From positions 2,724,212-2,788,211 of the forward strand of contig JABAKD010000003.1 of NCBI GenBank assembly GCA_012845835.1: DNA of 64,000 bases. Direction: 5' to 3'. Each line of letters starts with the position of its first letter. Position 1 is the first letter of the stretch. The translations under genes and the position numbers were made by a program. Below are positions 8,860 to 60,506 of this stretch, piece after piece. Below the pieces are notes generated by a model. That model worked only from the letters and a program-made list of their open reading frames with translations, was not told the DNA's origin and made no database searches. This DNA is from Undaria pinnatifida (lineage: Eukaryota > Sar > Phaeophyceae > Laminariales > Alariaceae).

Positions 8860-9360
8860 CGTCTGATCGCGAACGGACAGGGCAAGCAGTGGCCGCGACT
8901 GACGGCAATCGTACCGTTTCTGCTCGCTCTCTGTTCGTGAGCCACGGTCGCGACGCTCCCCCCAATGAACCCCCACTCTCTCCTCCTCCCGCCTCCCCCT
9001 CCTCCGTCCCGCCGCCACCGCCGCCTCCGCCACTGCAGCTGCCATCAATCAACTACTATCGCGAACGTGAAAATTGCACGCGCTCTGTTCGTGAGATGCC
9101 GTCGCGACATGCCCACTTGCAACTCCCCACTCGCCCGTCTCCACCGCCACCACCGCCTTCTCCACCAATGCCGCTCCCATCAGTCGGCTCTTTTAGCCGC
9201 CATGATGCCTACTCGCGCTCTTTGCGTGAATTATTATGACGGTTTTCCCATCAGTCACTCCCAACTCCCCCCCCCGTCCCCCCTCCCTCCTCTGTCCCCC
9301 GTTTCCCTCACCTCCCCTCTCTCACTTCCCCCGTCCCCCCTCCCCTCACGACTATGGCCA
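8860..9360. repeat. Three tandem units upstream of the 9549 acceptor
   Basis: Imperfect copies of about 130 bp begin near 8865, 9050 and 9180. Each carries TATCGCGAACGT/CTCGCGCTCTNTTCGTGA followed by CCCAACTCCCC and a long C/T tract. The units resemble a pyrimidine tract plus branch region repeated upstream of the splice acceptor. C-rich ORFs translating as poly-Pro are artefacts. Confidence 0.65.
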
Positions 9361-9548: not shown

Positions 9549-9788
9549 GCCCCACTATTGTGCTGCAATGAATGCTTCGAGATGCTCTTCTACGACGCAC
9601 ACGGGAATCCACTGAAGGGGAAGCGGGCCGGAGAGACGTGGCCCGACCCCCTCGCCGCGGGAAGACATCAGGAGGCTCTTCCCAGGGGGCGGGGCGGGGA
9701 TGGCAGCGGGGAAGAGTCGGAACCGGAAGAATCTGGGGCTGAAGGGCCGAAGGGATGGACTGTCTATAACTGCTACGACGAGCGCTAG
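9549..9788 (+). CDS. Terminal exon of the left-hand gene, CxxC motif and acidic tail
   Basis: The acceptor GTAACAG at 9542-9548 follows about 250 bp of C/T-rich DNA. The frame reads CCNECFEMLFYDAHGNPLKG, then a Gly/Arg segment, an acidic run (GSGEESEPEESGAEGP) and the end GWTVYNCYDER before TAG at 9786-9788. The CxxCFE motif resembles the CVSCFE that lies just beyond the previous exon, so one may derive from the other. Everything from about 9600 onward is the first and least decayed copy of a tandem array that runs to 10732. The coding assignment rests on the open frame, the acceptor and phase 0 agreement. Confidence 0.45.
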   Translation, partial: APLLCCNECFEMLFYDAHGNPLKGKRAGETWPDPLAAGRHQEALPRGRGGDGSGEESEPEESGAEGPKGWTVYNCYDER

Positions 9789-10732
9789 CGTATTGAGTAA
9801 CCCCTTTTAGATGGAAGGCTGGCAACCTAGAGGTGGCCCGCCCCCTTTCCTGCGGGGAGAAAACAGGAAGCTTTGCCGGGGGGGCGGGGGGGGGAGGGGG
9901 AGGCGGCAACAGTGAAGAGTCGGGACCAAAAGAAATTGGGGCTGAGGGGCCGGAGCGGTGGACAATCCACAACTGTTACTACAAACCAGCGTATTAAGTA
10001 ACTCCCTTTGATGGAAGGCTGGTCACCCAGAGATGGTCCGCTCCCCTTCCTGCGCGAAGAGATTAAGAGTCTTTTTTCCGGGCCGGGGGTTGGGGATGGC
10101 AGCGGGGATGAGTCGGAATTGGAAGAACCTGGGCTGAGGGGCCGAATGGATGGTCCGTCTATAACTGCTATGACGAGCGCTAGCGTATTGAGTGACCCCT
10201 TAGATGGAAAGCTGGGCAACCAGAGGTGGCCTGCCCCTCTTCCTGCGGGAAGAAACCAGGTGGCTTTCCCTCGGGGAGGGAGCGCGCGGACGACATCATC
10301 TGGGCTAGGGGGCCGACGGAGTGGGACGTCTATAACTGTTACCACGAACGCTAGGGCATTGAGTGATCCCCGCCGGTAGAAACCAGAAAGCTTTTCGCAG
10401 GGGCGGGGGCGGGGACGGCAGTGGGGGGGAATCAGAACCGGTAGAATCAGGGGCCAATGGGCCGACGGGATGGACTGTGTACAACTGCGACGACGAACGT
10501 TAGCGTATTGAGTAACCTCCTTGGATGAAAGGCTGGTCGCCTAGGGGTGGCCTGCACCCGTTCCTGCGGGAGGAAACTAAAGAGTCTTTTTCGATAGGGG
10601 GGGGACGGGGACGGAGACGGGGGAAGAATCTGGGGCTGGGAGGCCGCCGGGATGGATTGTCTATAACTGCTGCAACGAGCACTAATGTAGCGTGTTGAAT
10701 ATCCCCCATGGACGGAAGGCCGGCCACCAGTA
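9600..10732. repeat. Tandem amplification of the terminal exon (six copies plus a fragment)
   Basis: Unit of 150-200 bp. Approximate copies: 9600-9806, 9807-10003, 10004-10199, 10200-10370, 10371-10520, 10521-10708, fragment 10709-10732. Each contains ATGGAAGGCTGG, CCTGCGGGA(A/G)GA, a G-rich block, GGGGCCGA, and a conserved end TCTATAACTGCTACGACGAG followed by CGTATTGAGT. The first copy lies inside the exon ending at 9788. Later copies carry indels and in-frame stops. Confidence 0.85.
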
Positions 10733-11140: not shown

Positions 11141-11181
11141 GCCCCCATTGTGTGGGACATAATTGACTTGGTAAAAGACTG

Positions 11182-11530
11182 CACACGTCGGGCAGATCAC
11201 TGATCTACACTTGATGATCTAGATATTTCAGGGAAGATCTGTAGTGTCTAGCTCATGATACTGGGTGGGATCCGTACGATCTGCTTGGTCTAACAAAGTT
11301 TTTCGTCACCGATCTACCTTTGATGATCTAGATATTTCAGGAAGATCTGTAGTGTCTAGCTCATGATACTGGGTGGGATCCGAACGATCTGCTTGGTCTA
11401 GCGAAGTTTTCCAGGGTTGGGTATGTGCCCGTAATATACAGATCGTGATCAGCATCTCGTAACAGGCAGATACAGGATCTATTGTAGATTATGTAGATGA
11501 TCTAGATCGTGATCTGTCCTACAGTAGGTG
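11182..11530. mobile_element. MITE family A copy with internal duplication
   Basis: Starts CACACGTCGGGCAGATCA and ends TGATCTGTCCTACAGTAGGTG, imperfect terminal inverted repeats of the family seen whole at 14629-14886. The segment TTGATGATCTAGATATTTCA to CTGCTTGGTCTA occurs twice in tandem (about 11212-11290 and 11321-11400). There is no coding capacity, so it is non-autonomous. Confidence 0.7.
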
Positions 11531-14226: not shown

Positions 14227-17200
14227 CTTGAGTCACGGGGGCAGGGGGCGATAACAAGGAACACAAGCGGGGGGGGGCGTACTAATTGGTTGCTTGCCTT
14301 AGTAATTTGACCATTGACCACGCATCCTTTTCGAGACGGAGCACCGTTCCTATTCCTAATAGAGACACCTCCAACGTTTGTGCGCTTATCACGCTTTTTC
14401 CATATATTGCATAAATACTGTTTGCCTATCCTACCCCCGTCCTGTTTCGCCATCTGTGGCCACCATCTATCTCCCAGGGTAGCGAGGGGGGGGGATTTGT
14501 TGCTTGCTTTCGTATTTTGATCAGTCCATTGAGCACGCACCGCTTTCGAGACGGAGTACCGTTCCTACCCCTAATATTAACACAGGCACCTGCAACATGT
14601 GGGCGCTCATCGCGTTTTTCCACATATTCACACCTCGAACAGATCATCGACCCGTACTTGATGATCTAAATATTTCAGGTAAGGTCTGCATGGTCTAGCT
14701 TGTGTTACCCGGCGAGAGCCGTACGATCTGCATGCTCTAGCACATGTTTCCCGGGTTGAATCTGTACTCTACAGATCCAGATCCAGCACATCTTACAGCG
14801 GCAGATACGGGATCTACTGTAGATGATTTAGATGATCAAGATGATCTGTAGATTATCCAGATAGATCATGACCTGTCTGAGGTGTGCACATATTACTTTC
14901 TTGATTTTTGACTACCTTATCACCTTCCTGGTTATCACAAGGGGGCGCGGGGGGGGGGGGGGTGCGGCATGGTTTGTTTTGCTCTTCTTGCGGTAATTCC
15001 CGTCCACCGGACGGAGGTGAAATGCTCGAGCTGAAGGTTTTATAGATGTTGGCTTGGCTTCGACAAAAAGGTTGAAAAACTACTGGACTTAAGCTATAAC
15101 CCTAAACCCAACTGCCTGGGAAATTTTAGGTGTAAGTTGGGCTACAGGGGCAGGGAACAAAGGCGAGCGACGCGAGGGGGGGTGGGGCATGGGTTTGTTT
15201 TGCTCCAACAAGCTACCAGGTACCAGGTATCAAACAGGTATTAAATACCTGACATTATCATTAATAGTAACCACCTGGCAAACACACAATGTGTATATAT
15301 ATCAGCCACATGCCACGGCTAGTACCTCGGAAGTTCCCGTGCACCGGCGGAGGTGGAACACTCGAGATGAGGGCTGTAAATACCGAGACCCAGCATCGAA
15401 AAAACATTTGAAAAAACATGCCTCCGCACAACTGTAGCTTTGATACATCTCTGCCCGAAACATGAGTTGAATGCTCATCCGTAGCTGTCGGTTGGGCACG
15501 CCTCCGACACTTGAATGAAAAACCTAGCCCTGACCCCTACCACCCTGGGTAAAAGCCAACAGCAAACACCGACGAAAGCGCGTCAATCGCCGGGCGGCAA
15601 CGCGTGGTCCTCACCCGTACTGCACGCAATCACCAAACGCTACGCCGGTGATGTAGTTCCCCCCCATCAAGAGCCCCGGTGCCTTCTTCAGGCCCTCTTT
15701 CAAGTCTTCGAGGATGCCAAGGTGTCCCCTCTGGTACCTGCGATATCATAGTTCGAGAAACGCTCGGACGGTAAGTGGCTGGACTTTATTACATGCGCAT
15801 ATAGTTTCGTGAAATAAAACAGGGCTGTGTGTTACCTAGAATTCACGGCTAGGCATTAGTTGAGAGGAAGGGGGAAACCAACTAACCGACGTGGTCTTGA
15901 TATAAAAATTCCACACTTCCGAGCGAGTCGTCGATAATGCCAAGATGCCTTTGGTACCTGCGTAGTTCGACAAATGAGGCTCGACGTGAACATCGGCATC
16001 GGAGCACCGCTCCGTGTGATTACTACGGCGTGCGCCTGGCAGAGTACCGATGATGGGTTTTGATTGTATGATGGGTTTCGATTGTAACCCTTCTAAAACT
16101 GCCCATAAGTTTTTCGAGGATAGACTGCTAGGAGTTGGTGCGTGATAATTTCGCACCACTGATAACAGGGTTAGCGGAGTCGTCACGATATATTACTGTG
16201 GGGCGGTCTACTGCCACAAGCGCACGCCCAGGGTCTCAACAACAACAGTATATCCACGATACACCGTCGTACCTGTGCTGTTTTCTTTTCATCTGTCAAA
16301 AGTGTGGATCGGGTTGTTTCTTGATTTGCTATTTTTCGTCATCGACGCACCAACTACAGTAAATCGAAGGCAAGTGTCAGAGACGTTACAAATACAGACG
16401 GAGTACTGCAAGTGTAAGATATCGTCGCGTGTTTTGTACCAGTACCACACGTATGCTCTTGTGTGCTTTTTTTAGAAGATGGTCCACAAGATCGTCAAAT
16501 ACGAAATGCGCCTGGAATACCCGAAAAATTAGTCATGTTGGCCCATAATGGGCAAAAATTTGAAGGCCTGGCTCTCCCCAGCAACTCAAACATGCGCGGT
16601 TGGCATCGTCAGGAGCCCTGCAACAAGGCCTGCTACATTATCAGGTTCAATTGTAAATAATATGCAGATGTTTCGAGATCGGTCTATATCTACGTTGAAA
16701 AAAAAAACTTTAAAAAGCAAGTTTTGGCTACTACACCTTCGTATTCACTCGAATATCCAACAACAAAACTGAGAGTGCCGTAGACATGTTGGGTTTGCAG
16801 ATATGCCTCGAGGTTCGGTATCGTCGCAGATTCGTCCAGAATCTCCAGCTAGGGCATTAAAAAACTGCGAATTTATTACCTGGTACGCCGCAATCCAGTG
16901 ATCCTACGGGAGGCTTCACTCTTGGCAGGAATTGCTTTTGTTTCGGGCTGGTGGTTGGCAGGTCGTTGTTGCCGGTTTTTTTGTGGTCGATACGCACAAA
17001 AGCACAGGCTTGACATTCCTACCATGCGATCGCACCACCATCATCCATTCTTGCGCTTCATTTTTTTACAAGAGCGGTCACGGCGGCAACTCACTGTGGG
17101 ATGGCCTTCTGCCACAAGCGTACGCCCAGGGTCTTGGGCGGCGGTGCGTCATCCTTGAGAAGGATGGTGCGGATGTCACGATCGCACTCCGCCACGATCT

Positions 17201-20200
17201 CCTCGTCCGACAAGTCCTGCCAAACATCGGGGGGGGGGGGGGGGGGGGCGTACTCATTAATTGCTTGCCTTAGTCGTTTGAACATAGACCATGCATACTT
17301 TGAGGAGGGGGTGGTGTACTCATTAGTTGCTTGCCTTAGTCATTTAACATAAACCACGCATACTTGGGGGGTGGCGGGGGGGTGGTTTACTTATTACTTG
17401 CTTGCCTTAGTCATTTGACCATTGACCACGCGTACCCTTCGAGACGGAGAACCACCATTCGAGGGCAGGGCGTTACTTAGCGGAATAGTAAACAAGGACA
17501 ACACTGACTGCTAGAACTGCTGCAGGGCTGTAGGCAGCACTATGAGTTGGCTCGACGTCAGGGTTATAGTTAATACATTGGCATCCCGGATGGTCTAGTG
17601 GGTCAATCTGGTAACCAACAAGGTCGATTTCGCTGGTTTGAGCGCCCCCGAGCTCCTAGTCGTACTCGTACGGAGTTTTTCTTGTGCAAACGGTTGACTC
17701 GCGGGAAGCGCGAGAGCACGAGTTGGCAATATTCGATGAAAATCAACGGAGGGTTGTGAATGCCCTCTGCGCGATAAAAAACAAAGGCGCGCACCGGGGG
17801 GGGGGGGGGGGGGGGGGAGACGGCACCTGTGACCACGGCTAGTTCAGAAGCTGGAAAGCAAAAGTGAGCCTTGACAACAAAAATAACTAAATAAAAACGT
17901 GAGCTTAATACCAGTCTGGGTCCAAGCATTAGCCACTTCGGCGAATTCGAGAACGTCCAAAAGTGCCGTAGATTTAGGCCTTTAGACTGGTACTTGGGGC
18001 GGCGTAAAAACAGCCAACTAACTAATTTTCACGGTCGCACACTGCCACATTCTCCTTGTCCATGCCAAACACTGCAGGAAGTCGTTGTAGCGCATCAACA
18101 ATAAGGGACAAAAAAAAAAAAAAAAATCAACAAAGCAGTTACACAACAACAAGCAGCTACACAACCACAACACGTGACAGTTATTTTCCACACCTCGGGC
18201 AGAACACGATCTAGATCATATAGATCATATAGATTATATAGATCATATAGATCATCTACATATAGATCACATAGATCGTATAGATAATCTAGACCCTCTA
18301 GATCCTCTGGATCATCTAGATCATCTACAGCAGATTCTATACCTGCCGTTGTGAGATGCTGTGCAGGATCTGTATATGTCGAGCACAGATCCAACCCAGG
18401 AAACATGTACCATATCATGCAGCTCGTACGGCCCCCACCCGGCAACATGAACTAGACCATACACATCATCCCTCTGAAGATCTACATCATCACATGGGGA
18501 TCGATTCTCTGTCCGACGTGAGCATTTATCCTACTGCAAAAAAATCGACACCTCGATTTCCAAGTACAGCGCTGTTCATTGTTTTACGTGTTTTTTTTTC
18601 ATCCAAAATCTATGTTCAAATTTACCGCATCGTGATGCTGGTTAAAAAAAACTATCTGAAGCAAACGTGGAAATTTGGAAAGAAAAACAGTGAATCAATC
18701 GCAGTCCACAAGGCTTGAACCTCCGAGCACCTACAATCTCTGCCGCTACCGTCAGCCTCACCTTGATGCCAGGGTCCTGGGCGCCGCCGATGTAGTTGAG
18801 AAGCATAGCGTAACCTTCTGGAGCACGGCCAGGGAACAGCGACGACGACCAGATCGTGCCCAAAGTCCTGAAGTGGCCCATCCGACATAACAATATTCAG
18901 CGGTGGGGGTCGCGGTTTAAGATAACTGTGCATCAGGTCCTTTTTGACCCGAACTTCGACACGTGCTATTAATATAATGGAGGCGGCACTTTTTGGCTGC
19001 AACGTTTATATTTTTCATTGACGGGGCTCCTTAACCCTTTTGTGACTAGATTATAGTACAGCAACAATACAAGGTATAAACGCCTTATTATCGTGGCGCG
19101 AGCACGCAGCACACGACAGCGCAAGCCACGCGCGTGTCTTACAGGCACTTGGGTTGGAATTTCGACTGTACTATTGTGGTCAGCTAACCTAGCAGCCCGG
19201 GTTGCTTCGTGTGAAGAATGCTGCAATCATCCGTTCTATTCGTCGATTTTTCCCTATAATATGACCAAGATATAAGTAAGCCCCGAAAGGGTTAACCCCA
19301 AAATCGAGCGGGAAAAAAAAAAGGTTTCTCAATACTTTTCGCAATATGTCTGGGGCATGGGATTCGTCATCGGGATGCCCTGTTCTTTTTTTCCAAATCA
19401 ATTCTTGGGGTAAATGTATAGCGCAGCTGAAAGTGGCATATGCCTCAGACACAAAATCGGCGCAGCTCCACCTCAGCCCGGATGGGTTCTTCTCTTAAAA
19501 ATCGGAACGTGCATGGTACACCTTTTGTAGTATCGCATGTGAAGCCATTTGGCCTCTCTAAAAAACCAGCACTTTGATTTAGCCGGTCGCTCTTCAACGG
19601 CGACCCCCGCTTTAAAACCGTTAATCGGAAGCGCTCACAGAGCACTTTGCTAAATAAGTTTGTAGAATACAGATCGACAGATACTTCGCATTACACGTAG
19701 GGACTTTTTGGCTTACGACCAAAAGCAGAAATGTGGCGTTCAAACGGGGGGACCAAGGCTATGTTTCAACGGCTTAGAGCCACGGGGGAAAGTGGCTCCC
19801 CTACTTTTCTGTGCTCGTCAGCTTCGCAACAAGCACGGCGATGGACTGTTTCGATTGCGCTGGGCCAGCAACCGATTTTGAAGTTCGGTGTTGTGTGGGA
19901 CACAGAACCTTAATTCAGTAGCGACAATGGGGGCACCTCCCCTGCAGTACACAATAGTCGGGCTAAGCGCTAAGCCCGTGAGTTGGCTCACTGTCAGACG
20001 CGTGCTACGATAGAGGTGCGCTACTTTTTTTTCTTAATACTACCCCTCAATTTGGGGGCTCAAGACCTCTCCCAAGGCAAAAACTGATTTAGAGAAACAT
20101 AAAATTACTATGGGATGAAAAATCTCATCTGGCCTAGGTATTGGGTTAAGGAGCCCGGTCAGTCAGAGGCCATTTCAGACGAAAAGTACTGCTACCTACC

Positions 20201-28840: not shown

Positions 28841-28860
28841 AGTGGTAGTTCTTATAGATC

Positions 28861-29500: not shown

Positions 29501-29687
29501 GCAATATATAACCAACCAACATGTTTTGCGAGTCCGTCAATAGACCCTTACCGACTCCGGGGCTCTCCCCTTGCCACGCACTACCGTAGTACTCAGCAGC
29601 AAACTATCGAACCATTCACGTCTTCAGCGCGCATGCTCGCAAATACGTTATTTCCCTTCTTCTCTCGGTAAAAAAAGCAGAAATATG

Positions 29688-29767
29688 AAGTCGGTGGGAT
29701 CCGAACCCACGAACCACCGTTTGATGGTTTGTTGGTTATCTAGCACTACCTGAGCTACGTAGTCAAG
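29688..29767 (-). repeat. tRNA-like segment, not a functional tRNA gene
   Basis: Coding-strand order: GACTACGTAGCTCAGGTAGTG (A-box-like D arm), then GTGGGTTCGGATCCCAC, a perfect T arm with a B-box-like loop. The putative acceptor stem (GACTACG with CGACTTC) pairs in only four of seven positions and the anticodon arm is irregular. Similar 5' halves occur at 30492-30530 (plus) and 30717-30756 (minus), each fused to gag fragments. Confidence 0.6.
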
Positions 29768-30075
29768 TGGCTTCTTCCTTTTCCAACATTCTGCTTGTGC
29801 GGCATGTAAGCGTTTTTGATGCTCCCTTCTATGCTTGCGCGAGTCAGGCCAGGGCTGGACAAAGGGGTTTTCTTCATGTCGAAAGATGCCGACAGGTTTT
29901 GGACGATGTGTACGTCTACGTCGTCGTCATCCTTTGTTCATCCCAACACTGCAAGTTTCTGGACTGCCTCGTCAATACGGCTCAAGTATTCTACAGGGTC
30001 TTCACCCTTCACCATCGAGATCGAGTCAAACTCCTGAGCTACCGTGCGCTTCTCCATCGCAACCAGCCACCTCAT
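29767..30075 (-). pseudogene. Ty1/copia-type gag fragment, copy 1
   Basis: On the minus strand the peptide MEKRTVAQEFDSISMVKGED, then PVEYLSRIDEAVQKLAVLG, matches the two other copies and the UBN2-type gag of copia elements (basic start, EDPVEYL, leucine-rich helix). Frameshifts break the rest (VQNL, PWPDSRK and NAYMSH appear in other frames). Confidence 0.7.
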
Positions 30076-30189
30076 GCCGATTCCAGCTCTGGCCCATAAA
30101 CTACGAACCGTATCTGTCGTGCTCCGTGTGAGCGGCGGCTGCTGAGCCCATTGACGTCTGGGCCAAGGCCGGGATCGGCAAAAGGTGGC

Positions 30190-30490: not shown

Positions 30491-30755
30491 TGACTGCGTA
30501 GCTCAGTGGGTAGTGCTATATAGCCAACAAAATATATGTTTTGCGAGTCCGTCAATTGGCTCTCGCCGACTTCGTACCAGAGACCTCCGGGGCTCTCCCC
30601 ATGCCACGCACTACCGTAGTACTCAGGAGCTAACTACTATAACCATTCACGTCTCCAGCGCGCACGCTCGCAAATACGTTATTTCCCTTTTCTCCGGGAG
30701 AAAAAGGGAACATGTAGGTTATATAGCACTATCCACTGAGCAACGCGGTCACGTA

Positions 30756-50200: not shown

Positions 50201-53200
50201 CCATGCGTGGATGGGGGAAGAACATGAGCGCCCTGAAGGGTATCGATTGGCAGAGGAAGAGACGTCTGAGGAGGAGGAGGAGGAGGAGGAGGAAGAGGCG
50301 GCTCCCGTGTAAGTTGTTTTTGGTGGTGTTTTTGTCGTTGCGGTGATCGTGGTAATCGTGGGTTTGGTGTTGGTGTCGGTGTTGTTAGTGGTGGTGTTGG
50401 TGTTGAAGATTCGATTAGACAAGGGGGAAGACACCTCTGGTGAGGAAGAGGAAGAGGTGGCTCTTGGGTACGTTGTTGGTGATGGTGGTGTTGGTGCTGG
50501 TGTTGTCGGTGTTTGTGTTTAAAGGTGTCGATTGGAGTAGGGGAAAGGCACTTCTGATGAGGAAGAGGAATAGGAGGAAGAAGAGCAGGCGTGGTGGTGC
50601 TGTTGGTTTTGGTGTTGGTGGTTTGTTGTCGTTGTTGGTGTTGGTATTGGTGTTGTTGTTCTCACGTTGACTCATCGACATGGTCTAGTCCGCGGTCACA
50701 GGGCAGGCTCTAAGCACTCTGAAGTAGTAGAACGCCTCAGTATCATAAACCTCTATTAATATTGCACCAGTATAGATGCCTTGATCTGTCCATTACATGA
50801 GATGATTCGATTGCGATTGATACCTTCGCTAATTCATCAGGTTAACAAAAACGAAATCTACCAGATACTGATTTTTCTCCTTACACGTGTCGGACACAGC
50901 GTAAAAGCGTGGCAGTGCAATGTTTTCTGGGTTAGATCCGTGCTATGATATGCAGATGCTGCGCAATATATCGCAACGTCATATTTAGGATCTACGCCAA
51001 GTTGATGATCTACATTAGAAGATCGTGATCTGTCCAACATGATTTTTTCAGTTTTCTCCCGTTTTGCACCCCCCGGACACAGCGAAAAAATTGACTGCAG
51101 GCACTTTCGAAAAGAAGAGGCCGAACACTAGCACATGGGTTGGATAGGTACTATATACAGATCCTGCATAACACCTCAAAACGTCAGATGTAGGATCTAC
51201 GGATGATCTATCAGACAATAGATCGTGACATGTCCTTAGCCTGAGATGTTTTTATTGTATGTATTCTCCCAATCATGAGCTGTTTTTTTCTCCTTGCACC
51301 CCCCCACCCCCCTTTACTTGTAGCGTTTCAACTGCTGACTTAGCCTACTCATCGGCTGACATTTTCTCTCTCTCCTGTTTTTCTTGCACCCCGCCTCCAT
51401 GTGTGTGATTTGTTGGTGCTGACATGTTACATTTCTCCTGTTTCGTTGGTATGTTCTCGTTATCCCAGCGTGAAAGTGTGGCAGTGCAAGCATGTTCGAA
51501 AGGAAGAGGCCGAAAACTACAGGGGCGGGGCGTGCCGGGCCTGCTTCAACGCCGCAATAAAGTCGAGGGCGGGCATTAGCGTACGTATTTTATGATAGGA
51601 ATAGGAATTTGCCGATTTTTTTTCTGGTATGTTTAGAATTTCCTACAATTTTCCGTTTATTTCCGTGAATTGTTCGTCTGTCAGAGGACTGCTGTGCTTT
51701 GTTTTGGTCGCGTTCTTTTTTTTTGTTCGCGTTTTTCTGACAATTGATACAAGTTCGGTACCTGATACACGTTTTTATATTACTGCTGTGCTTTTTTTTC
51801 ATGATCCAACGGCGTTGACAGCATTTTTTTTTTTTGCACACTTTTAGCAGCAGGAGGTATCATGCGGGTTGATGGTTGCTCATTAGGCTATGGTGGCTTT
51901 ATTTTATTTTTTATCATTGGGCTATGGTTGAGGGGAATTGTGTGGACTGCTTTTTTTTTTAGTAACAAAGCTCATGCTTCCTATTTTTCCAATTGCGCGT
52001 ATTTATTTGAGTTTTGAGTCCATCGCCGACGACGTCGGGGCAGGAGACTTGGTGTTGCATTTCACGTTTGAGACAAGGATTTGCCAGGTGTGTGCGGACC
52101 GCACGTGATTCTAAGAGCTGCTGAGAGTCTTGTACCGCGGTATTACACATGCCTGATCCAAGCAGCAGACGATATCATGCGGGTTGACGGTTACTCAGCA
52201 TGTTGTGATTGGACTTGGAATTATTTGTATCCAGTCCAGCTATATACGAAGTAGTCTATTGATAGTGCTCTAGTGTGTTCATGCTCCATCTTTTCGATGA
52301 TTGTTTGCTTGTTTGTTTGTTTCCTTCTTGTTCATGGTTAATGGCGTCGGAACACGAGACTTGATTTTGCGTTTTCGACTGGGATAATGATTTACCCGGT
52401 ATAGCGTTAGGCGCGGAGATTTTGGATTCGGTTTGGTTCGGTCCAGTTGTGTTATTTTTGTGTGTGGCCAATGCTGTGATCGTCTTTTTTTTCGACCATG
52501 TTCCCTCTGAAGCCTCGAAGGGTCATAACCACGCGCACCCCGGACATATCAATTATCCCCCCTTGATGATCTACATATTACGGGGAAGATCTGTATGATG
52601 TAGCTCATGGTACCGAGTGGGAGCCGTTCGATCTGCATGTTTTATTCACAGCAAATTTTTCTAGGGTTAGATCTGTCCTCTTCATAAACATATCCTGTAC
52701 AGCATGGTCGCCACCGTTATTATTGATCATTTTTTTTTATGTTGATGTTCACCCTGGCAACATACATAGGAGTGATAAACAGTTAAAGATACTACATCTG
52801 TAAAACCGAGCGGCCTGTGTATCACGCAGCTTGCGAAGATGAATATCGACCCTAAATTTGTCGAACTCACAGCTAGCATGTTTACAAAAGTTTTATAAAA
52901 TATCCCAGAACGGCAGAGACGGAATCTACCGTAGATGATCTAGATCATGATCCGTTCGAGGTGCGTAGTATTTTCTACGTTAGTGCAAGAATTATCCAGC
53001 GCTTGTTCCAACTTTGTTCCCGAAATTACTAGTGGCGTTCTCACGGAGCTGAGAACAGGGACGTCGTTTTGACGACTCCCCCTCCTTGTGCCTGGTTTGT
53101 GTGATTTGTGTTTTGAGCAGATGTGCAAGCATGTGAGGGAAGGGGAGGCGAGGGCGTACGGGCGAGGTCCCGGTAACTACGGCAAGGGGCACTGCCGCGA

Positions 53201-56200
53201 GTGCACCATAGCGAAGTTCCCCGTGAAGGCAAGCAACATGTGATCGTAGGGATGCGATAAGCGAATGTACATAAAAGGCGATGTATATTTCGCGAGGAAC
53301 TCGCGCTGATGGATATCTGTAACTGTCGTCGACTGCTGTGTGCGTTGGTGGGAAGCGGGAAGGGCCCAACCCAACCCAACCCAACCCAACCCAAATCAAC
53401 ACAACACAACACAACACAACACAACACAACACAACACAACACAACACAACACAACACAACACAACACAACACAATACAACACAACACAACACAACACAAC
53501 ACAGCACAACACAACCCAACACAACCCAACCCAACTCCCACCAACACAACACAACACAACACAACACAACACAACACAACACAACACAACACAACACAAC
53601 CCAGCCTAACCCAACCCAGCCCAACCCAGCCCAACAAAAGTGATTTGAAGTCGCCTCATTACCGCCCACTTCCTAGTAGTTGTTTAATTTGAAGATTCCG
53701 GTCGTCGGCCGGGACATAGAGATCCGGGCACGCGGGGCTGGAAAGGAACTCCTCTTTTTTGGCGTCTTCGGAAACTTTGACACTCGCTTCGCTTGTGGTG
53801 AACATGTGTGCGGTGTCCCTCGGCCTCGGAGAGAGTTCCAGTTTCGTCAACATATGCTAGGATTCGAGCTTGGAAAAACGTTCCATCTGTCGTCCTTGTC
53901 TTTTGTCTTGCGTAGCGTATTTTTCCTTGGGTATTGCGCTACGTACTGGGAGTATTTTTCGAAGGTGCGTACAGGTACCGTATGTTTGGATTGGGTTCTA
54001 CATAGATTGTTACACACTTTTACTGCAGTAATATTCGATAGTAAACACTGCAGCTTCTGAAGCTGCTCTGTGCCTTCGCTGGACTGATATTATTGCGACG
54101 AGCGTGCCGCTGCTGCTCTGTTGTTACTGCTGCGACTATGTGTTGTTGCTGCTGCTACAATATGTTGTTGGTGCTGACGCTGCCGCTCTGTGCTGATGCT
54201 GCACATAGCATACGTGGCTGTACCCGGGTGTGACCAACGGGTGGTCGACTGTGTTGCCTGACGCTTGCTGTCGATGTTGCTGGTGATGTAGATGTTGGTG
54301 GTGATGTAGATGTTGGTGGTGATGTAGATGTTGGTGGTGTCGTTGTTGTTTTTGCGCTGGTACGTGCCGTGTATTTTTTACCTTGCTTTTTTTGTGTTTC
54401 ATTTGTTGCAGTGTTGATGCTTCCCATCTTTCCTTTGTTCTGTCCTCGATAGAAAGCCACAGTGCCGAAGCCCCGGATATACGACCGAGCTACTTGTTGG
54501 TGGTCGACGTATGGTGTTGTTTTCCACTTCTTTTTGTTCTGTTTTTTATCCTCCGGTGGATGGGGAAACATAAAGCTTAAGCTCACCACACTTCCACGTA
54601 TTTTCCTACGCGTCGTGTGTCAATTTAACTCAATTGCATACTTTTTTGTGTGTACGTTTTGTTGGTATGTTTTGACGTTTTTTCGTGTTTCCTTTGGTAC
54701 CATTTTCCCACTTTTTCCGTTGTTGTCTCCTCGACAGAAAATCAAAGTCCCGAAGCCCCGACTGTGGCCGAGCTGCGTGATACCGGAGTGTCGCCGGAGG
54801 CACAGTGCCTGGGGAATGTGTGCGGCATGCCTCGCGGTAAGAGTGTCGTATCATGCAGCTGGTCATGTACGTTACTGCAGTCTCTGATATGTGAATGCTA
54901 TTAGAGTATTATTGATACAATAGATGACATTTTGAGGCACTCCGCTGTAAGAACAATCGGCATATAAAAGCCCTCAAACTTCTCCGCATCGTTTTTCCCC
55001 ACTTGAACCGGTTTCGTCCCGTATAGCACTATTAATAGTGGACGCAACACTCCGTAAGGGACCCCACGTGCCTTTATTTTAAAGGGGTCACCACATAGTC
55101 CCCCGCTTGAAAAACGCCACATAGACGGCTAGAAACCTTGACAACCTCTTGGCAACTCCAAAATCCCCCTGCACTAATTCCAAGTAGTTTTCCCCCAAAG
55201 CCGGGTTTCCCGTTGTAAAATCGTTAAGTGGGGCCACACTTGTTGGAAGGACGTCGGTATATTAGGGACGCTGCCGCCCCGTATGGTAGCCCTCTTGCAG
55301 CCCGGATATAGCCACCAAAGACATGACCAGTGCGATGTTATCCACCGTCACCACCGTCTCGTGAGTGCGCAGCAGTCCGAATGGGATCGTAGCGTGCGTT
55401 TTGTTGTTTTGTTGCAGGTCGGACACGAAATGTGTCACCAGTATCCAAGCAGCCCGCGTTGCTTGGGATGGTCGATGCTGTAATAAACGTCAGGTTTTTC
55501 GTATTGGTCATTTTTTCGTTTGCGTTTGGAGTCCCAGAGGGATCACAAACCTGGAGAAGTGCAGCCACGTTTTTGAAGATGAATTATTCAAGAGTTGGTG
55601 TGGAAAGTTTTTCTGCGGTGGCAAAAGGGTTAAAAAGGGCCACCTATGATTGTGATCGTATTTACATCGTATGGTATAGTATCTTTTCTGACCTTGCTTT
55701 CGCATTGCCTTGTCTGATGTTATCTCGTACCGGGTATGTTTTGTCTTTGTTTTGTGGTTTGTCTTGGTTTTGGTTTGCACGTTGTGTTATGTCGGCTTGG
55801 TGCGATTTTGTGTTGTTTTTACTTACATTGCCTTGTGTTGTATTTTCGCATCGTTTCACATCGTCTATTACTAATTAATTCGCCCATGTAAGTATTTTCG
55901 GGGGGAAGCGCATTACATATTGTCTTATCTGAGCTTGTGTTGCCGTGCCGTGCGTTGCCTTATATTACGGTATCTTATGATGTGTTATCTCCTGGGTACC
56001 TGGCCTGACGTCGTTTTGCACTTTGTCTTGTTAATTCACATGCAGGTCTTTGAGAAGAAAAACCCCGCGGCATATCCGCCTTCGTATGTTTATTTTATAA
56101 AACTATTTCAAGGACGCCAGCCGTATGTTTATTATTGTTTTGCCGTGTGTGATGTTATGTTGCCTTGCATCGCCTTGTCATACAATATCTCTGGTCTTGT

Positions 56201-59200
56201 TTTGTTTCATCTTGTCTTGACTTATCTGCAGATCTACAAGGAGAAGCACCCCCAGGCGGATCCGCCTTCACAGGCTTCACAGGCGAAGCGCAAGAATTTT
56301 AAGGCAAGGCGGAATTGAGCGGAATTGAGGTTTTGACCCAAAAAGCGTACGTACAGAAGTCTATACTACTATAATAAAAGAACGAAAAGCAAAATTTGCA
56401 TCCCGAGTTCTGCAATTGTCTGCATTATTTTGTTTCTGTGGCTCTTCACAGGAGGAGCTGAATGCCTCTCCCAAGGACTGATTTTGGGGGAACATAAAAT
56501 ATTCTAGTCTATGACGTAGGTCCCATGGCCTGCCAGGTAGGTGTGCCAAGACAGTTATTGCGAAACAAGAATGATCTTCCAAGGGTTGTGGATCAAGGAA
56601 CTCCGTTATTCAGAAAACGTGTCGGCCTGACAGCGCTTCCGCTATCGTAGGACGCTTATTATCTCATCTCCTCACCCGACCCGACCCGCTAGATTTTCGA
56701 ACAACTCCTTGACCGTCCTGACTCGACTCTCGAGATGTTGAAAGCCTCCTGATCCGACCCCGCGGGTCGGGTCATGATCCGTGAAAACCCCTGAAATTTC
56801 AATATTTGTCCCAGTGATCGGCTTTTTGTTTTTTTTTACTGCAAATGTGGCGTAATTTACACCAACCGTCCTTTTTTTTTTCGCGAAATTACCTCCAAAT
56901 AAAAATTAGCATCACTACAAAACTACGTATTTCTAAACTTATACCCTGACATATCGAAAACCAGGCTGGACGGAATGTAAGGGCGCCGGACAGGAATATA
57001 AGGTCCATTGGTACATCAAAATGAATACGAAACAGTTCTTACATTTACGTTCAGATTGCGAGAAGACACGAACATATCAGGGGTTTTCACGGGTCGGGTT
57101 ACGTCTCGTGAGTCGGGTTGGGCGGGGGTAACCCGACCCGTCCCGTGAAAGTTGAAACCCTCCTGACCCGAGTCGACCCGACCCGACCCAGCCCGAGAGA
57201 TTTCGAACACCTCCTGACCCGACTCGACTAGACCCGCGAGATTTTGAACCGCTCTTGACCCGACCCGCAGGTCGCTGGAAACAAGTGGCCCCTTAACGCC
57301 TTTACAACTGGAAACCCATTTGGGGGACAAAGTTACTTGGAATAAGTATAGGGAGGGGTTTCGGGGCTCTAAAGGGGTTAATGCGAAAATAGTTGCGACC
57401 TTATTGAGTCTAAACCTAGCGAGGTAATGAAGTTTTCCACACCCTGCACGGCGCGCGGTGCGGGGGTTTTGTTCGTCGTCGTTTTTTGTTGTTGGTGTTA
57501 TGAAGCCGCTACTCTAGGAGAATGCCCTCTTGGCGATGCATTGTTCGATAGAACAAGATGGCTGGGCATCTCTCTTGTCGTTTGTTCAACTGCCTCACAG
57601 CAGTGTCTTTGTTGTGGTGTTGGTAGTCTGATGCAAACCCGCTCTTCTCCCCTCCCCCAGCCCCCCGCCCCCCCATCCAATTCCCCGCTCCCCCGCTCCC
57701 CCGCTAACTCCCGCCCGCTGTACGGACACGCTTCCGGCTACCTGGCAGCCAGCTCGCCTTTTCACTACAGTAGGGGTCTCCCAATAAGTCGGTGTGCGTG
57801 AGGGGGTGTCCCGATGTATGGCGGTTAAAACCGCGTGGCGCGACTGGGGAAATAGCTCTCATAATATAGTCTGAGGAAGGCGGCTTCCCGTAGTAACGCA
57901 GTTACAACGCAGTTATATTGCTCTGGCACACCACCGCTTTACTCTGCATTCCCTACTGTACGTCGAATATTTTGATTTTTTACGCCATCAACTGTACCTG
58001 GTATAAACGTATAGACCCATTTTTGTTGTTGACGACCCCCCCCCACGTCCCCACCGTGCGGACACGCCTCCGGCTACATTGAAACCAGGCCGGCTTTAGG
58101 TACATGGGGGAAGACGCAGAGTTCACGGATTCTTCGGACGATGAAAATCCTCGACTAAAGGGAGGGGGTAAGGTTGTCAAGTTCAGCCCGGGGGGTGACC
58201 CCGTAGCAGCGAAAGCGGCAGCAGTGGCGGCGGTGGCGGCGGTGGCGGCGAAGGCGGATGCTGGTTCTCCTGGGCCTGGAGCCGGCGATGAGGTTGGCTT
58301 GTAGGCTCTGATGAAAAAATACACTGCAGCTGTGAGATCGACCATTTTGACCAAAACCAGCTTTGCAAGCTGCGTGTGATACTTCGATCGCGCGTGTTCC
58401 GGGGTGTTTATACCCTCGTGAAGGATACAGGTCGGTGACCCACCTGCCAATGCCAGGGTCAACAGGACTAAGCCGTTCAGCCTTGTTCTGCGCACGGAAA
58501 CTGTATAACGCGCATTGAGGGAGACAAAACAAGACATGGAAATCATTATGCACAGAACGAATAATCGTTACAGTGAGTTTACTTTTGGAGTGGGCTACTT
58601 GGGTTTACATATCATCGGGAAGGTTTGCATGTAAGGATGGTATTGCAGGTATTATTTGAATTGATTGCACCCGATGTGAGGGGGGGCGAGGGATTGCAGG
58701 TATGATTAAAATGGTTGCACCCGATGTGGGGGAGGGCGAGGAAGGGATGTGGTAGGTTCCCCTGAGCTTCGAACCGGCGCGGCGTATGGAGGATGACGAG
58801 GAGGGTTTGATGAAATCGATTGCGTGCACCTGGCATGGAGGAGCGGGAGGGAGGAGGAGGGGGCGTACTCATTACCATGCAGGGCTGTAGCATTGACCTT
58901 TTTCCAACTCCTAAAATATTTTCCTGGTCTTACTCCAAGTGTTTTTTCCTCAAGCCGGGAGAGCGGTGCTAAAAAGGTTGTACGACCATAGACCCTTGCA
59001 TCCTTACAATGCCGAGACGGAGCTCGTCGGATTTTCACAGACCAGGCGGGGGGTGTACTCATTCCATGCATGGCCGTCGTATTTAGGACCATAGACCCTC
59101 GCATCCCTACGATGCCGGGACGGAGCGCTTCGGGTATCCGATGGGCGCACTCGTGTCGCCTGTTGATATTAGCGCAATTGGCAGGGCAGCGGGGGGGTAT

Positions 59201-60506
59201 GGCAGGCTATCAACGCAACGCCTCTCATGGATGCCTCTCGACCCCCACGCCCACCTCTACCCGCCCCCACCCCTTATCCCTTCCACCCGCGCCCCCCTGC
59301 ACCGTCGCATACGCCTCCAGCCCCACCCCATGTACCTTCCACCTCACCCCCACGCCCCTTTACCCCCCCCCCCCCCACCAACCCCGCCACCAACCCCCCC
59401 CCACCCCCCCCCAACCTACCACTCCCTCCCCCCGCTTTACCCATCGATACAAGGAGCAGGGCGACGCTTCCCGAACCTCCAAAGAGCTAGGATCGGGAGG
59501 AGTTCCGCAATCGCCTGGCGGGGTTTCTGGAGGGAAGGGGGGGGCGGGGGGCAAGAAGAGGGGTGCTAAGGGTATCCTGAGTGGTGCTGGTGGCAATGGG
59601 GGGGTGGGAGCTCGGCAGGGGAAGCGAGCGAAGATGCACGTCGGAGAAGGCAAGTTTTTTTTGTAGAGTTTTTGAAGGCGGTGGAGGGGACGGGACGGGA
59701 CGCGATGGGAGGGGAAGGGAAGGGAAGGAGTGGACGGGGGGCGGGGAGGGGAAGAGGGGAGAGGAGAGGAGAGGAGGGGAGAGGACGGGGCACGTAGCGT
59801 TGTTGTCGTGGAGTTACTGAAGCTAACGCCCCCGCTACTGCCCTGTGTTGCCTTGACTTTTGCCTTGCCATGCCTTGCCGTTCCGTAATCCTGTCTGTTT
59901 CCCTTTGGTGCTGGGTTGTTGTTCCTTCGAGCAGATGCTCCTATTTGCTTCTACTGCCAGAAATCGGCGGGGCGCGACGCGAAGGACCAGCTGCTGCTTT
60001 GCGCGGACTTTGACTGCACCCGCAGCGTGCACATGAAGTGCTGCAGCCCTTCGCTCGACAAGGTACTGTTCGGTACTTAGTACTAGTGCATATAAAATCT
60101 TGTATGGTATACACGTACCAGGTACAGTAGATTATTTGGATGATCTAGATCGTGGCCTGTCGGCAGCCCTTCGCTCGACAGGTATTGTTTGATACTACTA
60201 CTGCACAGGGTAATGTTTCGGTTCAGACGGAAATAATGTCGAAATGGTCTCATGACGGTTACAGCATCGGCGACACCTTTTCTGCTGGAGAAGGGTGTGT
60301 GTCCGGAGAGCGGCGTTGAGAGCTTTACCATGCGCTCAGAGCAGGCTGATAGTCGTCCTGCTGCTGGCTCTTCCAAGATGCGTGACAAGGCCACAGGTGA
60401 CAAGACCGCTGTGTATGTGTGGGACAAACGCTCTAGAAATAACAAGCGTTGCTCCCCAAAGGAGATCGTAGTCGACGACGCCAAATGTCGGACGGTAGTC
60501 CAGTAG
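40935..60506 (+). CDS. Large multi-exon gene for a probable chromatin reader (Tudor-knot-like, Cys/His knuckles, PHD half)
   Basis: Proposed exon chain: 40935-41037, 43006-44273, 46178 (or 46199)-46360, 48113-48158 (or 48170), 50112-50308, 51469-51580, 53121-53222, 54738-54836, 56232-56303, 58089-58292, 59454-59649, 59935-60062, 60291-60506. Adjacent phases agree under this choice, in places by picking between nearby sites, which supports one transcript. Domain order: acidic/helical segment, C2HC-like finger, about 330 residues of Gly/Ser/Ala low complexity, acidic Glu run, C4 motif, Tudor-knot/chromo-barrel-like block, Ala-rich then Glu-rich segment, two CKHV knuckles, one C4 knuckle, basic and Ala-rich linkers, PHD N-terminal half, Cys-containing end. 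The start codon and 5' exon are not located. The PHD finger's last Cys pair is not found, so the 3' exons may be incomplete. A nuclear role in recognising histone marks is inference. Confidence 0.6.
43006..44273 (+). CDS. Right-hand gene, large exon: C2HC-like finger, low complexity, acidic run, C4 motif
   Basis: Acceptor CCCCCAG at 42999-43005; donor GG|GTGAGT at 44273/44274, phase 2, which removes the in-frame TGA. It starts with SCLLSNCYLKKP then FTSHDELNKHLQRCMP (Cys-x4-Cys, F, L, H-x3-C, a finger with an enlarged loop). Then come Gly/Ser/Ala-rich stretches with AGGGAGGG, an acidic segment of about 20 Glu (near 43960-44060), and GGFTCPVNPVEAWGLPGCGK, DTKCDSCGRYL (four Cys, treble-clef-like). 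GC content is clearly higher than in the flanking introns, as expected for coding DNA here. Confidence 0.75.
45790..46175. repeat. Three tandem units upstream of the 46178 acceptor
   Basis: Units of about 125 bp near 45797, 45920 and 46040. Each has GCC(A)ATCNCA, a C-rich tract, GCGTGACAACA/GTGCGACAACT/GCGCAACAACA and a TACGCAACCC/CGAAACCC/ACCAAACCCATGC end. The pyrimidine tracts make poly-Pro ORFs that are not genes. Confidence 0.7.
46178..46360 (+). CDS. Right-hand gene, Tudor-knot-like exon
   Basis: Acceptor either ATGAAG (46177) or GGGGAG (46198); both restore Gly and the same frame. Reads NPELKLAGVVTFQNKNG, LTYKGRVVAIDPRP and GRVRVKYDDWPYDK. Hydrophobic-strand spacing and YDDWPYDKYDE (completed by the next exon) resemble the Y-x-GW-x-x-x-YDEW strand of Tudor-knot/chromo-barrel domains of the MRG15/MOF type. 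Donor AA|GTGAGA. Confidence 0.7.
46567..47259. mobile_element. CAGTCGGA-family element, complete 693 bp copy
   Basis: Begins GCAGTCGGATTGCTCAGTCG and ends CGACTGGCGGAATCCGACTGC, terminal inverted repeats rich in nested GTCGAAAA/TTTTCGAC. No transposase ORF. The ORFs at 46576-46974 (plus) and 46580-47083 (minus) cross the repeats and are unlikely to be genes. Confidence 0.75.
48113..48170 (+). CDS. Right-hand gene, short exon completing the Tudor-like block
   Basis: Acceptor ATTTCCAG; the first base completes Lys to give DKYDEDTDMEMVTPFGW. Two phase-0 donors are possible, TGG|GTACCC (48158) and CCG|GTAGGC (48170). Without splicing the frame runs on to a TGA at 48252-48254. The segment after 48170 is repeated twice downstream in decayed form, so I treat it as intron. 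Confidence 0.6.
48418..48765 (+). repeat. Decayed copies of the 3' side of the 48113 exon and its intron
   Basis: The block at 48192-48330 (GTTGTTCCCTTCACGCCAGC, AACCGAGGTGAAC, ACGGCAACCA, TCGTGTGATT) recurs at about 48443-48640 and, truncated, at 48715-48760 (GGTCGTTCCTTTCACGCCAG). Unit length is about 275-290 bp. Confidence 0.8.
49384..49480 (+). CDS. Possible alternative exon, paralogue of the 50112 exon
   Basis: After GCGGCAG the frame reads SQYSKRVPHSFIPAIHALAQ then FVATAALKNH, aligned to SQYPKRVPAVYYAFPAIPTP then AQFAAAAAAG at 50112. The length difference is 6 nt, so the frame is kept, and there is no stop for another 90 nt. It could be a mutually exclusive exon or a young ghost. No clear donor is seen near its end. 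Confidence 0.4.
50112..50308 (+). CDS. Right-hand gene, Ala-rich/acidic exon
   Basis: Acceptor GTGCAG (or TCTCAG at 50117, same frame). Reads SQYPKRVPAVYYAFPAIPTP, AQFAAAAAAGHAWMGEEHER and a run of about 12 Glu. Donor CCCGT|GTAAGT in phase 2 joins the Val codon with 51469. The acidic end and donor are repeated at 50404-50475 and 50519-50605. Confidence 0.65.
50404..50605 (+). repeat. Two decayed copies of the acidic exon end and donor
   Basis: GATTCGATTAGACAAGGGGG...GAGGAAGAGGAAGAGGTGGC and GTGTCGATTGGAGTAGGGGA...GAGGAAGAGGAATAG match TATCGATTGGCAGAGGAAGA...GAGGAGGAGGAAGAGGCGGC of the 50112 exon. The GTGTTGGTGTTGGT intron sequence between copies is also shared. Confidence 0.75.
50894..51135 (+). 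repeat. Two decayed copies of the 51469 exon start
   Basis: 50894-50935 (ACACAGCGTAAAAGCGTGGC then AGTGCAATGTT) and 51070-51135 (ACACAGCGAAAAAATTG, CAGGCACTTTCGAAAAGAAG, AGGCCGAACACTA) match CCCAGCGTGAAAGTGTGGCA, AGCATGTTCGAAAGGAAGAG and GCCGAAAACTACA at 51464-51530. Both are out of frame or carry stops. Confidence 0.85.
51469..51580 (+). CDS. Right-hand gene, Cys/His knuckle exon 1
   Basis: Acceptor TATCCCAG, donor AGC|GTACGT. The first base completes Val. Reads VKVWQCKHVRKEEAENYRGG then ACRACFNAAIKSRAGIS: C-x-H, 15-16 residues, then C-x2-C, a putative zinc knuckle. Its core CKHVR-x-x-EA...Y...C-R-x-C recurs in the next exon, so the two arose by exon duplication. Confidence 0.75.
53121..53222 (+). 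CDS. Right-hand gene, Cys/His knuckle exon 2
   Basis: Acceptor TTTTGAGCAG, donor CCC|GTGAAG; 34 codons, phase 0 at both ends. Reads MCKHVREGEARAYGRGPGNY then GKGHCRECTIAKFP. If the donor is skipped the frame ends VKASNM and a stop. Paralogous to the 51469 exon. Confidence 0.7.
53370..53640. repeat. CAACA/CCCAA pentamer array
   Basis: Over 45 near-perfect CAACA units between CCCAA blocks, in the intron after the second knuckle exon. The flank at 53270-53360 matches 42760-42850 inverted. Confidence 0.95.
54443..54500 (+). repeat. Decayed copy of the 54738 exon start
   Basis: CCTCGATAGAAAGCCACAGT, GCCGAAGCCCCGGATA and CGACCGAGCTAC match CCTCGACAGAAAATCAAAGT, CCCGAAGCCCCGACTG and TGGCCGAGCTGC at 54730-54775, including the acceptor. 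The CxxxxC core is lost. Confidence 0.85.
54738..54836 (+). CDS. Right-hand gene, C4 knuckle exon 3
   Basis: Acceptor CTCGACAG, donor GCG|GTAAGA, 33 codons in phase 0. Reads KIKVPKPRLWPSCVIPEC then RRRHSAWGMCAACLA: C-x4-C, 8-10 residues, G-x-C-x2-C. The spacing resembles the short C-x4-C...G-x-C-x2-H/C zinc knuckles that are repeated in many stramenopile proteins. Confidence 0.75.
54901..55122 (-). other. Unassigned open frame in the intron after knuckle 3
   Basis: Minus-strand frame with a protein-like composition (FKIKARGVPYGVLRPLLIVL). I recognise no family, and the flanks look like a dispersed repeat (55140-55260 matches 46470-46560 and 57290-57390 loosely). Probably a transposable-element remnant. 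Confidence 0.25.
56046..56087 (+). repeat. Copy of the 56232 exon start
   Basis: After ATGCAG the frame reads VFEKKNPAAYPPSY, aligned to IYKEKHPQADPPSQ at 56232. There is no consensus donor (TAT|GTTTAT), so I treat it as a ghost, although the frame is intact and use as an alternative exon is possible. Confidence 0.55.
56232..56303 (+). CDS. Right-hand gene, basic linker exon with GC donor
   Basis: Acceptor ATCTGCAG. Reads IYKEKHPQADPPSQASQA then KRKNFK. No GT donor fits; AAG|GCAAGG is a good GC-AG type donor in phase 0. Without splicing the protein would end KARRN and TGA at 56316-56318. Confidence 0.5.
57085..57275. repeat. GGGTC/GACCC arrays
   Basis: Together with 56670-56790, inverted pentamer blocks of the 600-1030 family. 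Confidence 0.8.
57716..57780 (+). repeat. Decayed copy of the 58089 exon acceptor region
   Basis: CGGACACGCTTCCGGCTACC, then CAGCCAGCTCGCCTTT and CAGTAGG, match CGGACACGCCTCCGGCTACA, AACCAGGCCGGCTTT and TTAGG at 58058-58100. Confidence 0.75.
58089..58292 (+). CDS. Right-hand gene, acidic and Ala-rich linker exon
   Basis: Acceptor AAACCAG at 58082-58088 (phase 0). Reads AGFRYMGEDAEFTDSSDDEN, PRLKGGGKVVKFSPGG, then AAAVAAVAAVAAKADAG. The DSSDDE block is a likely CK2-type phosphorylation patch (inference). The donor is uncertain: GAG|GTTGGC at 58292 keeps phase 0; otherwise the frame ends in TAG at 58302-58304. Confidence 0.5.
58314..58390. repeat. Family E short foldback repeat
   Basis: Contains CAGCTGTGAGATCGA and GCTTTGCAAGCTGCGTGTGA. 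Other copies: 37613-37682, 38186-38265, 48866-48935, 52815-52885, 61553-61600, 62733-62800, in both orientations; about 75 bp each. Confidence 0.75.
58845..59125. repeat. Tandem units upstream of the 59454 exon
   Basis: Two copies with a G run, TGTACTCATT, CCATGCA(T/G)GG(C/G)C, CCATAGACCCT(T/C)GCATCC, TACNATGCCG(A/G)GACGGAGC. Related to the poly-G repeats of PPOX introns 11 and 13. Confidence 0.7.
59454..59649 (+). CDS. Right-hand gene, Gly/Lys-rich exon ending in a GC donor
   Basis: Acceptor ATACAAG (59453) or GAGCAG (59459), same frame. Reads GDASRTSKELGSGGVPQSP, GGKKRGAKGILSGAGG and GKRAKMHVGE. It ends GAGAAG|GCAAGT, the GC-AG donor consensus, in phase 1. The next exon begins with the two bases that complete Asp. 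Without splicing the frame stops at 59664-59666. Confidence 0.65.
59935..60062 (+). CDS. Right-hand gene, PHD-finger N-terminal half
   Basis: Acceptor TCGAGCAG, donor AAG|GTACTG. Reads APICFYCQKSAGRDAKDQ, LLLCADFDCTRSVHMKCC and SPSLDK: C-x2-C, 14 residues, C-x4-C, x4, H-x2-C, the first six ligands of a C4HC3 PHD finger, which reads histone H3 tails in known proteins. The last C-x2-C with its Trp should lie in a further exon that I could not find with confidence. Confidence 0.8.
60162..60198 (+). repeat. Decayed copy of the PHD exon end and donor
   Basis: GGCAGCCCTTCGCTCGACAG then GTATTGTTTGATACT repeats GCAGCCCTTCGCTCGACAAG and GTACTGTTCGGTACT at 60043-60077. A MITE A end (TAGATCGTGGCCTGTC) lies between them. 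Confidence 0.85.
60291..60506 (+). CDS. Right-hand gene, tentative last exon
   Basis: From acceptor GCTGGAG (weak) the frame reads KGVCPESGVESFTMRSEQ, SSKMRDKATGDKTAVYVWDK and KRCSPKEIVVDDAKCRTVVQ before TAG at 60504-60506, in phase with 60062. Composition is protein-like and differs from the surrounding repeats. It lacks the W and C-x2-C needed to finish the PHD finger, so an intervening exon or a different gene is possible. Confidence 0.4.
   Translation, partial: KGVCPESGVESFTMRSEQADSRPAAGSSKMRDKATGDKTAVYVWDKRSRNNKRCSPKEIVVDDAKCRTVVQ

Follow-up and report, generated by a model that had tools for sequence, protein, structure and literature searches.

Tandem duplication of exons can yield mutually exclusive exons. 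Local duplication has also been described in brown algal ROCO genes, in which LRR exon shuffling involves whole exons encoding repeats, and these exons are both expressed and spliced in alternative ways (PMC11378527). Repair-mediated duplications in human were collected with copies within 50 bp excluded, and the accessible part of that study gives 4 partial exon/intron donors among 824 and describes one inverted exon copy (PMC2671141); the 'doublets' of Thomas et al. are cited in the same source. Sequence (or exon) stuttering was described in 2026, mainly in birds and their GC-rich dot chromosomes, as the repetition of exon edge fragments in the neighbouring intron, with more than 90% of the sources lying within one base of an exon border (PMC12954441). 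According to the accessible sections of that paper, stuttering occurs in 190 of 5,572 dot-chromosome introns, and 190 of the 236 stuttering introns lie on GC-rich dot chromosomes, GC-rich genes of the gerbil being the sole exception mentioned there. A link to high GC is suggested by its authors and the cause is left open; variation of intron length between birds is the third main feature and GC-richness only an association (PMC12954441). This was the only paper found on sequence stuttering, and no such description was found in the titles and abstract openings of those brown algal and kelp papers on introns and duplication that were listed.

An earlier note on one stretch of the genome of the kelp Undaria pinnatifida had reported degenerate copies of exon edges, with their splice sites and adjoining intron, beside most exons of three genes, and had read them as intron growth by repeated short local duplications centred on exon boundaries. 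As set out below, its observation is borne out in part and its interpretation is half right.

Sequence, exon sample and edge tests

The window, a stretch of 64,000 bp (G000:C37:2724212-2788211) with a GC content of 46-55%, belongs to an assembly of 511,146,479 bp in 68 contigs with GC near 50%. It holds a PPOX gene on the minus strand and, at 46-60 kb, a plus-strand gene with a PHD-finger exon. The TIGR00562 profile has six matches in the window, of which three reach E <= 0.01; a minus-strand frame from the PPOX region, when compared with solved structures, had no useful match. Exon boundaries in the window were placed by hand on the basis of splice sites, reading frames and profile matches, no transcripts being used, and the numbering of the PPOX exons is provisional, exons 24448-24628 and 22265-22408 being taken as exons 6 and 8 of the earlier note. 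The full sample comprised 73 exons, 19 from the window and 54 placed elsewhere by protein profiles; the latter came from fetched loci and included 22 amino-oxidase or PPOX-like exons and 32 kinase exons. The kinase exons were chosen from 133 profile matches by a short stop-free open frame, with 30 regions of 2 kb fetched that cover 32 matches, and the ends of profile-placed exons are accurate to some tens of bases. The window had been picked for the feature studied here, which inflates any effect measured in it.

A first edge test, confined to the window, compared 80-bp edge queries with their own flanks and with 150 foreign flanks (threshold p <= 2/151). The main edge test used 100-bp queries from all 73 exons and 300 foreign flanks (threshold p <= 0.01), and scored 135 of 146 exon ends, queries with more than 30% masked sequence or less than 400 bp of flank being omitted. 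Among the 37 window ends scored, two do not mark a splice site: the exon at 46250 begins at an arbitrary point, and the last PPOX exon ends with its stop codon. Neither of these ends matched. The foreign pool of the main test could contain parts of the window, even the query itself, which makes the p values of the window conservative; the run for the positional profile was free of this. Shuffled controls were single-base shuffles, in which dinucleotides are not kept. Two loci, L015, which is a dense array, and L017, of which 40% is masked, were excluded from the pair summaries, null pools, non-coding controls and positional profile, and the exons of L015 were retained in the main edge count, to which they contribute 2 of 26 matches.

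Copies of exon edges in the window

Copies of exon edges in the neighbouring introns are real. For 13 of the 37 window ends scored in the main test, the end's own flank contains a copy in the same orientation that foreign DNA fails to match. The 80-bp test found direct copies for 12 of 35 edges, inverted copies for 2 of 35 and matches for 3 of 19 exon middles, the corresponding figures for non-coding controls of the window being 60 (direct) and 22 (inverted) of 286. Chance similarity was rejected with foreign flanks, single-base shuffles and inverted orientation as controls. Copies above the shuffled maximum show 66-93% identity and number 1 to 5 per edge; the many copies proposed earlier are thus not confirmed as the rule, and a single array, of about 18 short units, lies beside the exon at 24448.

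On the plus strand, five head-to-tail copies, each about 150-195 bp long and 75-81% identical, lie behind the terminal exon of the first gene (9606-10701 together with the exon end); the stop codon lies at 9786-9788, and the copies fill 9811-10701 nearly without gaps, past the stop, and are not intronic. In the PPOX gene (minus strand), exon 15615-15737, exon 13 of the earlier note, has an acceptor copy at 15924-15990 (84%, AG kept; 15615-15990 overall), and exon 17095-17216 has both edges copied within 16171-18075, the donor at 16171-16236 (77%, GT kept) and the acceptor at 18030-18075 (77%, AG kept). Exon 22265-22408 has four donor-edge copies above threshold in its downstream intron at 21861-22213, three of the four with GT kept (21861-22408 overall). 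Exon 24448-24628 has a minisatellite-like array on its donor side at 24026-24459 (24026-24628 overall), whose 21/47-bp unit spans the exon end and the GT. The donor of this exon sits inside a unit of the array, and GT is kept in all five scored copies.

Further copies accompany exons on the plus strand. Exon 48113-48158 is followed by a degenerate intronic array at 48204-48751, seen by self-comparison (48113-48751 overall); its donor gave p = 0.026 in the 80-bp test, did not fall below 0.01 in the 100-bp test, and had nothing above the shuffled maximum. Exon 50112-50308 has a clean acceptor-side copy at 49385-49412 (93%; 49385-50642 overall); its donor-side copies at 50442-50507 and 50557-50642 lie in simple-sequence-rich DNA, and the donor query, as masked simple sequence, was omitted from both foreign-flank tests. 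Acceptor-side copies lie beside exon 51469-51580, at 50895-50920 (88%) and 51078-51119 (79%; 50895-51580 overall), and beside exon 54738-54836, at 54421-54493 (80%, AG kept; 54421-54836 overall), the local origin of the copies at these two exons being judged by the foreign-flank test alone. Exons 56232-56303 and 58089-58292 have acceptor-side copies at 56011-56083 (76%, AG kept; 56011-56303 overall) and 57714-57776 (75%, AG kept; 57714-58832 overall), respectively, and the latter also has a donor-side copy at 58755-58832 (73%, GT lost). The PHD-finger exon 59935-60062 has a donor-edge copy at 60161-60207 (87%, GT kept; 59935-60207 overall).

Two observations were made by eye. Apparent donors at 53228, 56303 and 59649 in the PHD gene read GC, not GT (AAG/GCAAG), which suggests either GC-AG introns or misplaced exon ends. 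A family of 'gatgatctagat'-like motifs recurs at 11197-11410, 14630-14870, 18210-18520, 52540-52640 and 60140-60165, and is perhaps a dispersed element of the kelp genome; one such piece falls into the interval that separates the copy at 60161 from its parent exon.

Of the ten examples named in the earlier note, eight stand above foreign-flank or shuffled controls, namely the donors of PPOX exons 24448-24628 and 22265-22408 and of the exon at 59935, and the acceptors of PPOX exon 15615-15737 and of the exons at 51469, 54738, 56232 and 58089, whereas the donors at 48113 and 50112 are not clear. Beyond its list, copies also accompany both edges of PPOX exon 17095-17216, the donor at 58292 and the terminal exon of the first gene. 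The copies do leave decoy splice sites in the introns, as had been claimed. The graded record expected from that note, with the best copies nearest the exon, does not hold as a rule: beside exon 22265 identity is lowest in the closest copy (66%) and reaches 72-80% in those further away, and at exon 51469 the farther copy is the better one, while the exon at 24448 follows the grading (87% nearest, 80-85% further out).

Exon edges compared with other non-coding DNA

In the main test, direct matches were obtained for 26 of 135 exon ends, about one being expected at p <= 0.01, for 4 of 64 exon middles and for 129 of 820 non-coding stretches; inverted matches numbered 3 of 135, 0 of 64 and 38 of 820, respectively. 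The direct orientation claimed earlier was therefore recovered, and so was the excess in own over unrelated DNA on which the earlier note had staked its reading. For 25 of the 26 copied exon ends, the copy lies in the intron adjoining that same end. Exon middles differed from exon ends (p = 0.02). The further claim that duplication is centred on exon boundaries found no support, the frequency at exon ends being close to that in non-coding stretches (Fisher p = 0.31). By sample, matches were found for 13 of 37 ends in the window, 3 of 43 in amino-oxidase loci and 10 of 55 in kinase loci. Outside the window, 13 of 98 ends compare with 85 of 586 non-coding stretches (p = 0.88), and inside the window, which was chosen for the feature, 13 of 37 compare with 44 of 234 (p = 0.03). 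Copied ends occur in 11 of 19 window exons and in 12 of 52 exons elsewhere; copies beside most exons were not confirmed as a general rule.

A positional profile with 64-bp queries gave a similar picture. On the intron side, pooled frequencies were 12-16% at 500 to 110 bp from the edge, 12% at 80, 8% at 50 and 10% at 25 bp; the edge itself gave 16%, with inverted matches at 1 of 135, and the exon side 15% at 25 bp and 7% at 50 bp. At the edge, the window contributed 13 of 36, the amino-oxidase loci 1 of 37 and the kinase loci 8 of 62, and within the window the edge value compares with 5 to 11 of 34-37 at positions inside the intron. When the samples are pooled, the profile stays flat across the edge; a peak is present in the window sample only and absent from the other two. 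In the sampled genes, exon edges are duplicated about as often as other non-coding DNA, and the targeting of edges, assessed on 135 ends, 64 middles and 820 non-coding stretches, is unsupported outside the window.

Local direct duplication across the genome

Self-comparison of the masked window revealed 28 times as many direct repeats as a distance-neutral expectation at distances below 250 bp (37 pairs), 11 times as many at 250-500 bp (15 pairs) and 7 times as many at 500-1000 bp (19 pairs). Inverted repeats at the same distances numbered 3, 1 and 6 pairs (4, 1.4 and 4 times). An excess of nearby direct over inverted repeats that falls with distance is thus present. Pairs within 2 kb were then summarized for 24 pieces, each 10 kb long, of which six belong to the window and 18 to other regions; these pairs amounted to 206 direct and 12 inverted pairs, with none in shuffled sequence; the direct pairs have a median identity of 79.5%, a median length of 75 bp and a median spacing of 210 bp. 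Direct local repeats cover at least 10% (mean) or 7% (median) of the sampled bases, and 11-26% in four regions placed regardless of genes. The pairs group into 108 clusters, and the 71 pairs outside arrays comprise 70 direct and one inverted. Of these isolated direct pairs, 21 of 70 lie within 10 bp of each other and 49 more than 10 bp apart, the former figure being 13 of 30 among pairs of at least 85% identity. As a technical control only, the same pipeline gave one direct pair in 50 kb of E. coli. The locus L015 (G000:C13:191000-200999), which has amino-oxidase-like exons, holds 233 direct and one inverted local pairs in 10 kb. In the window, 29505-31040 resembles a mobile element, with a direct pair of 77% and an inverted pair (30198-30529/30713-31040) of 84% identity.

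Origin of the copies

The copies are local and direct, occur in nearly every sampled region and are not enriched at exon edges outside the window. The flat pooled profile argues for local duplication that is not centred on boundaries, and short local direct duplication looks genome-wide and, given 70 direct against one inverted isolated pair, is probably tandem. Its combination, unbiased as to position, with selection on exons probably explains the edge copies. Short stretches, mostly of about 35-290 bp, of the nuclear genome would be duplicated repeatedly beside themselves in the same orientation, in genic and intergenic DNA alike, probably through tandem duplication by replication slippage or unequal sister-strand exchange. 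Where a duplicate spans an exon end, a copy with part of the exon, its splice site and some intron would stay in the adjoining intron, the coding-side splice site remaining in use. A duplication wholly within an exon would break the protein and be lost, and the exon parent, held constant by selection, would keep its decaying copies recognisable. Exon edges would thus be conspicuous because exon-internal duplications damage the protein and because the exon parent does not decay. Some results run counter to this explanation: the isolated pairs more than 10 bp apart may in part have been spaced from the start, window ends exceed their own non-coding controls, rates vary among samples, as between the amino-oxidase and kinase ends, and one of the 24 pieces, L011, holds no pair at all.

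Repair of double-strand breaks, in which proximal DNA is copied into the break (repair-mediated duplications, 'doublets'), would also leave spaced local copies. Many pairs are indeed spaced, 64 of 206 by 100-500 bp, and the copy at 60161-60207 is 87% identical to its parent, yet by eye the intervening sequence is not repeated. By our own reasoning, however, a captured fragment has no obvious orientation bias, against which the near absence of inverted isolated pairs must be set, and the five copies behind the terminal exon of the first gene form a nearly gapless array; break repair is regarded as rather unlikely. A process aimed at exon boundaries, mediated for instance by splicing, R-loops or nucleosome edges, would multiply splice regions and make introns grow. 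It would account for the higher frequency at window ends than in the non-coding DNA of the window and for the pooled value of 16% at the edge against 8% at 50 bp into the intron, but there is no excess outside the window, and in the pooled data the edge is matched as often as the deep intron, although exon constraint alone should raise detection at the edge; such targeting is considered quite improbable.

The copies might instead be alternative or mutually exclusive exons under selection, as 19 of the 22 copies spanning the splice site keep its dinucleotide and, in trimmed alignments, the bases of the dinucleotide match at 32 of 36 positions, compared with 75% over the alignments. The latter figure is weak, its observations being non-independent and including five copies of one array, and one splice site per copy is the rule. 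Both ends copied on the same side, as duplication of a whole exon with its two splice sites would give, were found in one of the 23 exons with a copied end (L051), on which ground this very improbable explanation was rejected. Insertions of transposons or captured gene fragments could be expected in a genome of which 54% is repeat-masked according to the consulted part of PMC7058681, and some local pairs are mobile-element-like, such as 29505-31040 with its inverted partner. The exon-edge copies, however, are closer to their own neighbour than to foreign flanks and are direct in orientation, unlike a transposon scatter, as the earlier note had stated. In the one array checked, a 451-bp stretch beside PPOX exon 22265-22408, the only match in the 511-Mb genome was to itself, and a transposon origin, hardly credible in general, was rejected for this array.

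Implications

Beyond the edge copies themselves, it may be proposed tentatively, and with some doubt, that kelp introns stutter genome-wide at ordinary GC, with repeated local tandem duplication as a main engine of intron growth and decoy splice sites peppered through the introns, so that neither GC-richness nor microchromosomes would be needed for stuttering. If so, the same signature in a brown alga at 50% GC would suggest that stuttering is a general outcome of a high local duplication rate, and kelp would provide a second system in which its causes and its effects on splicing can be tested. Edge-centred repeats can, as a caution, arise from unbiased duplication and selection on exons.

Comparison with known systems

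The kelp copies share with the repair-mediated duplications and 'doublets', as far as these are described in the accessible part of PMC2671141, that short copies lie within a few kb and that some contain pieces of exons or splice sites, and differ from them in the dominance of direct orientation and the presence of a nearly gapless array. Measured against the criterion of that study (more than 50 bp apart, non-tandem), 21 of 70 isolated pairs lie within 10 bp, the rest are spaced, and one array is near-gapless. With tandem exon duplication leading to mutually exclusive exons, the kelp has in common that exon material is duplicated into the neighbouring intron, but its copies contain partial exons and one splice site. 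The ROCO genes likewise show local exon duplication in brown algae, but involve, in the available account of PMC11378527, whole repeat-coding exons and not decaying exon edges.

Avian exon stuttering is the nearest known case. As in the accessible description of the birds (PMC12954441), kelp introns were found to contain local repeats, imperfect and direct, that are tens to hundreds of bp long, and lateral exon fragments duplicated together with a donor or acceptor into the intron beside them; coding exons remain intact, and intron-only and intergenic repeats occur too. This likeness covers the repeat and exon-fragment features and comes from one assembly. Unlike those of the birds, the kelp copies show no association with GC-rich DNA or microchromosomes, significant copies lying on many contigs at about 50% GC, and they look older, given the median identity over all local pairs, and usually number 1 to 5 per edge. 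The cut-off of 42.1 bits taken from PMC12954441 was applied with settings that are not identical to those of that paper (exon with 15 bp of flank as query, up to 1.5 kb of flank searched, gene models not manually weeded). At this cut-off, 9 of 144 kelp exon flanks qualified (95% interval 2.9-11.5%), 3 of 38 in the window and 6 of 106 elsewhere, as compared with 0 of 144 foreign flanks; none of the nine alignments is simple sequence, and no shuffled flank exceeded 25.6 bits. Judged from sequence, the kelp frequency thus appears to be of the same order as that given for avian dot chromosomes, in genes drawn from many contigs.
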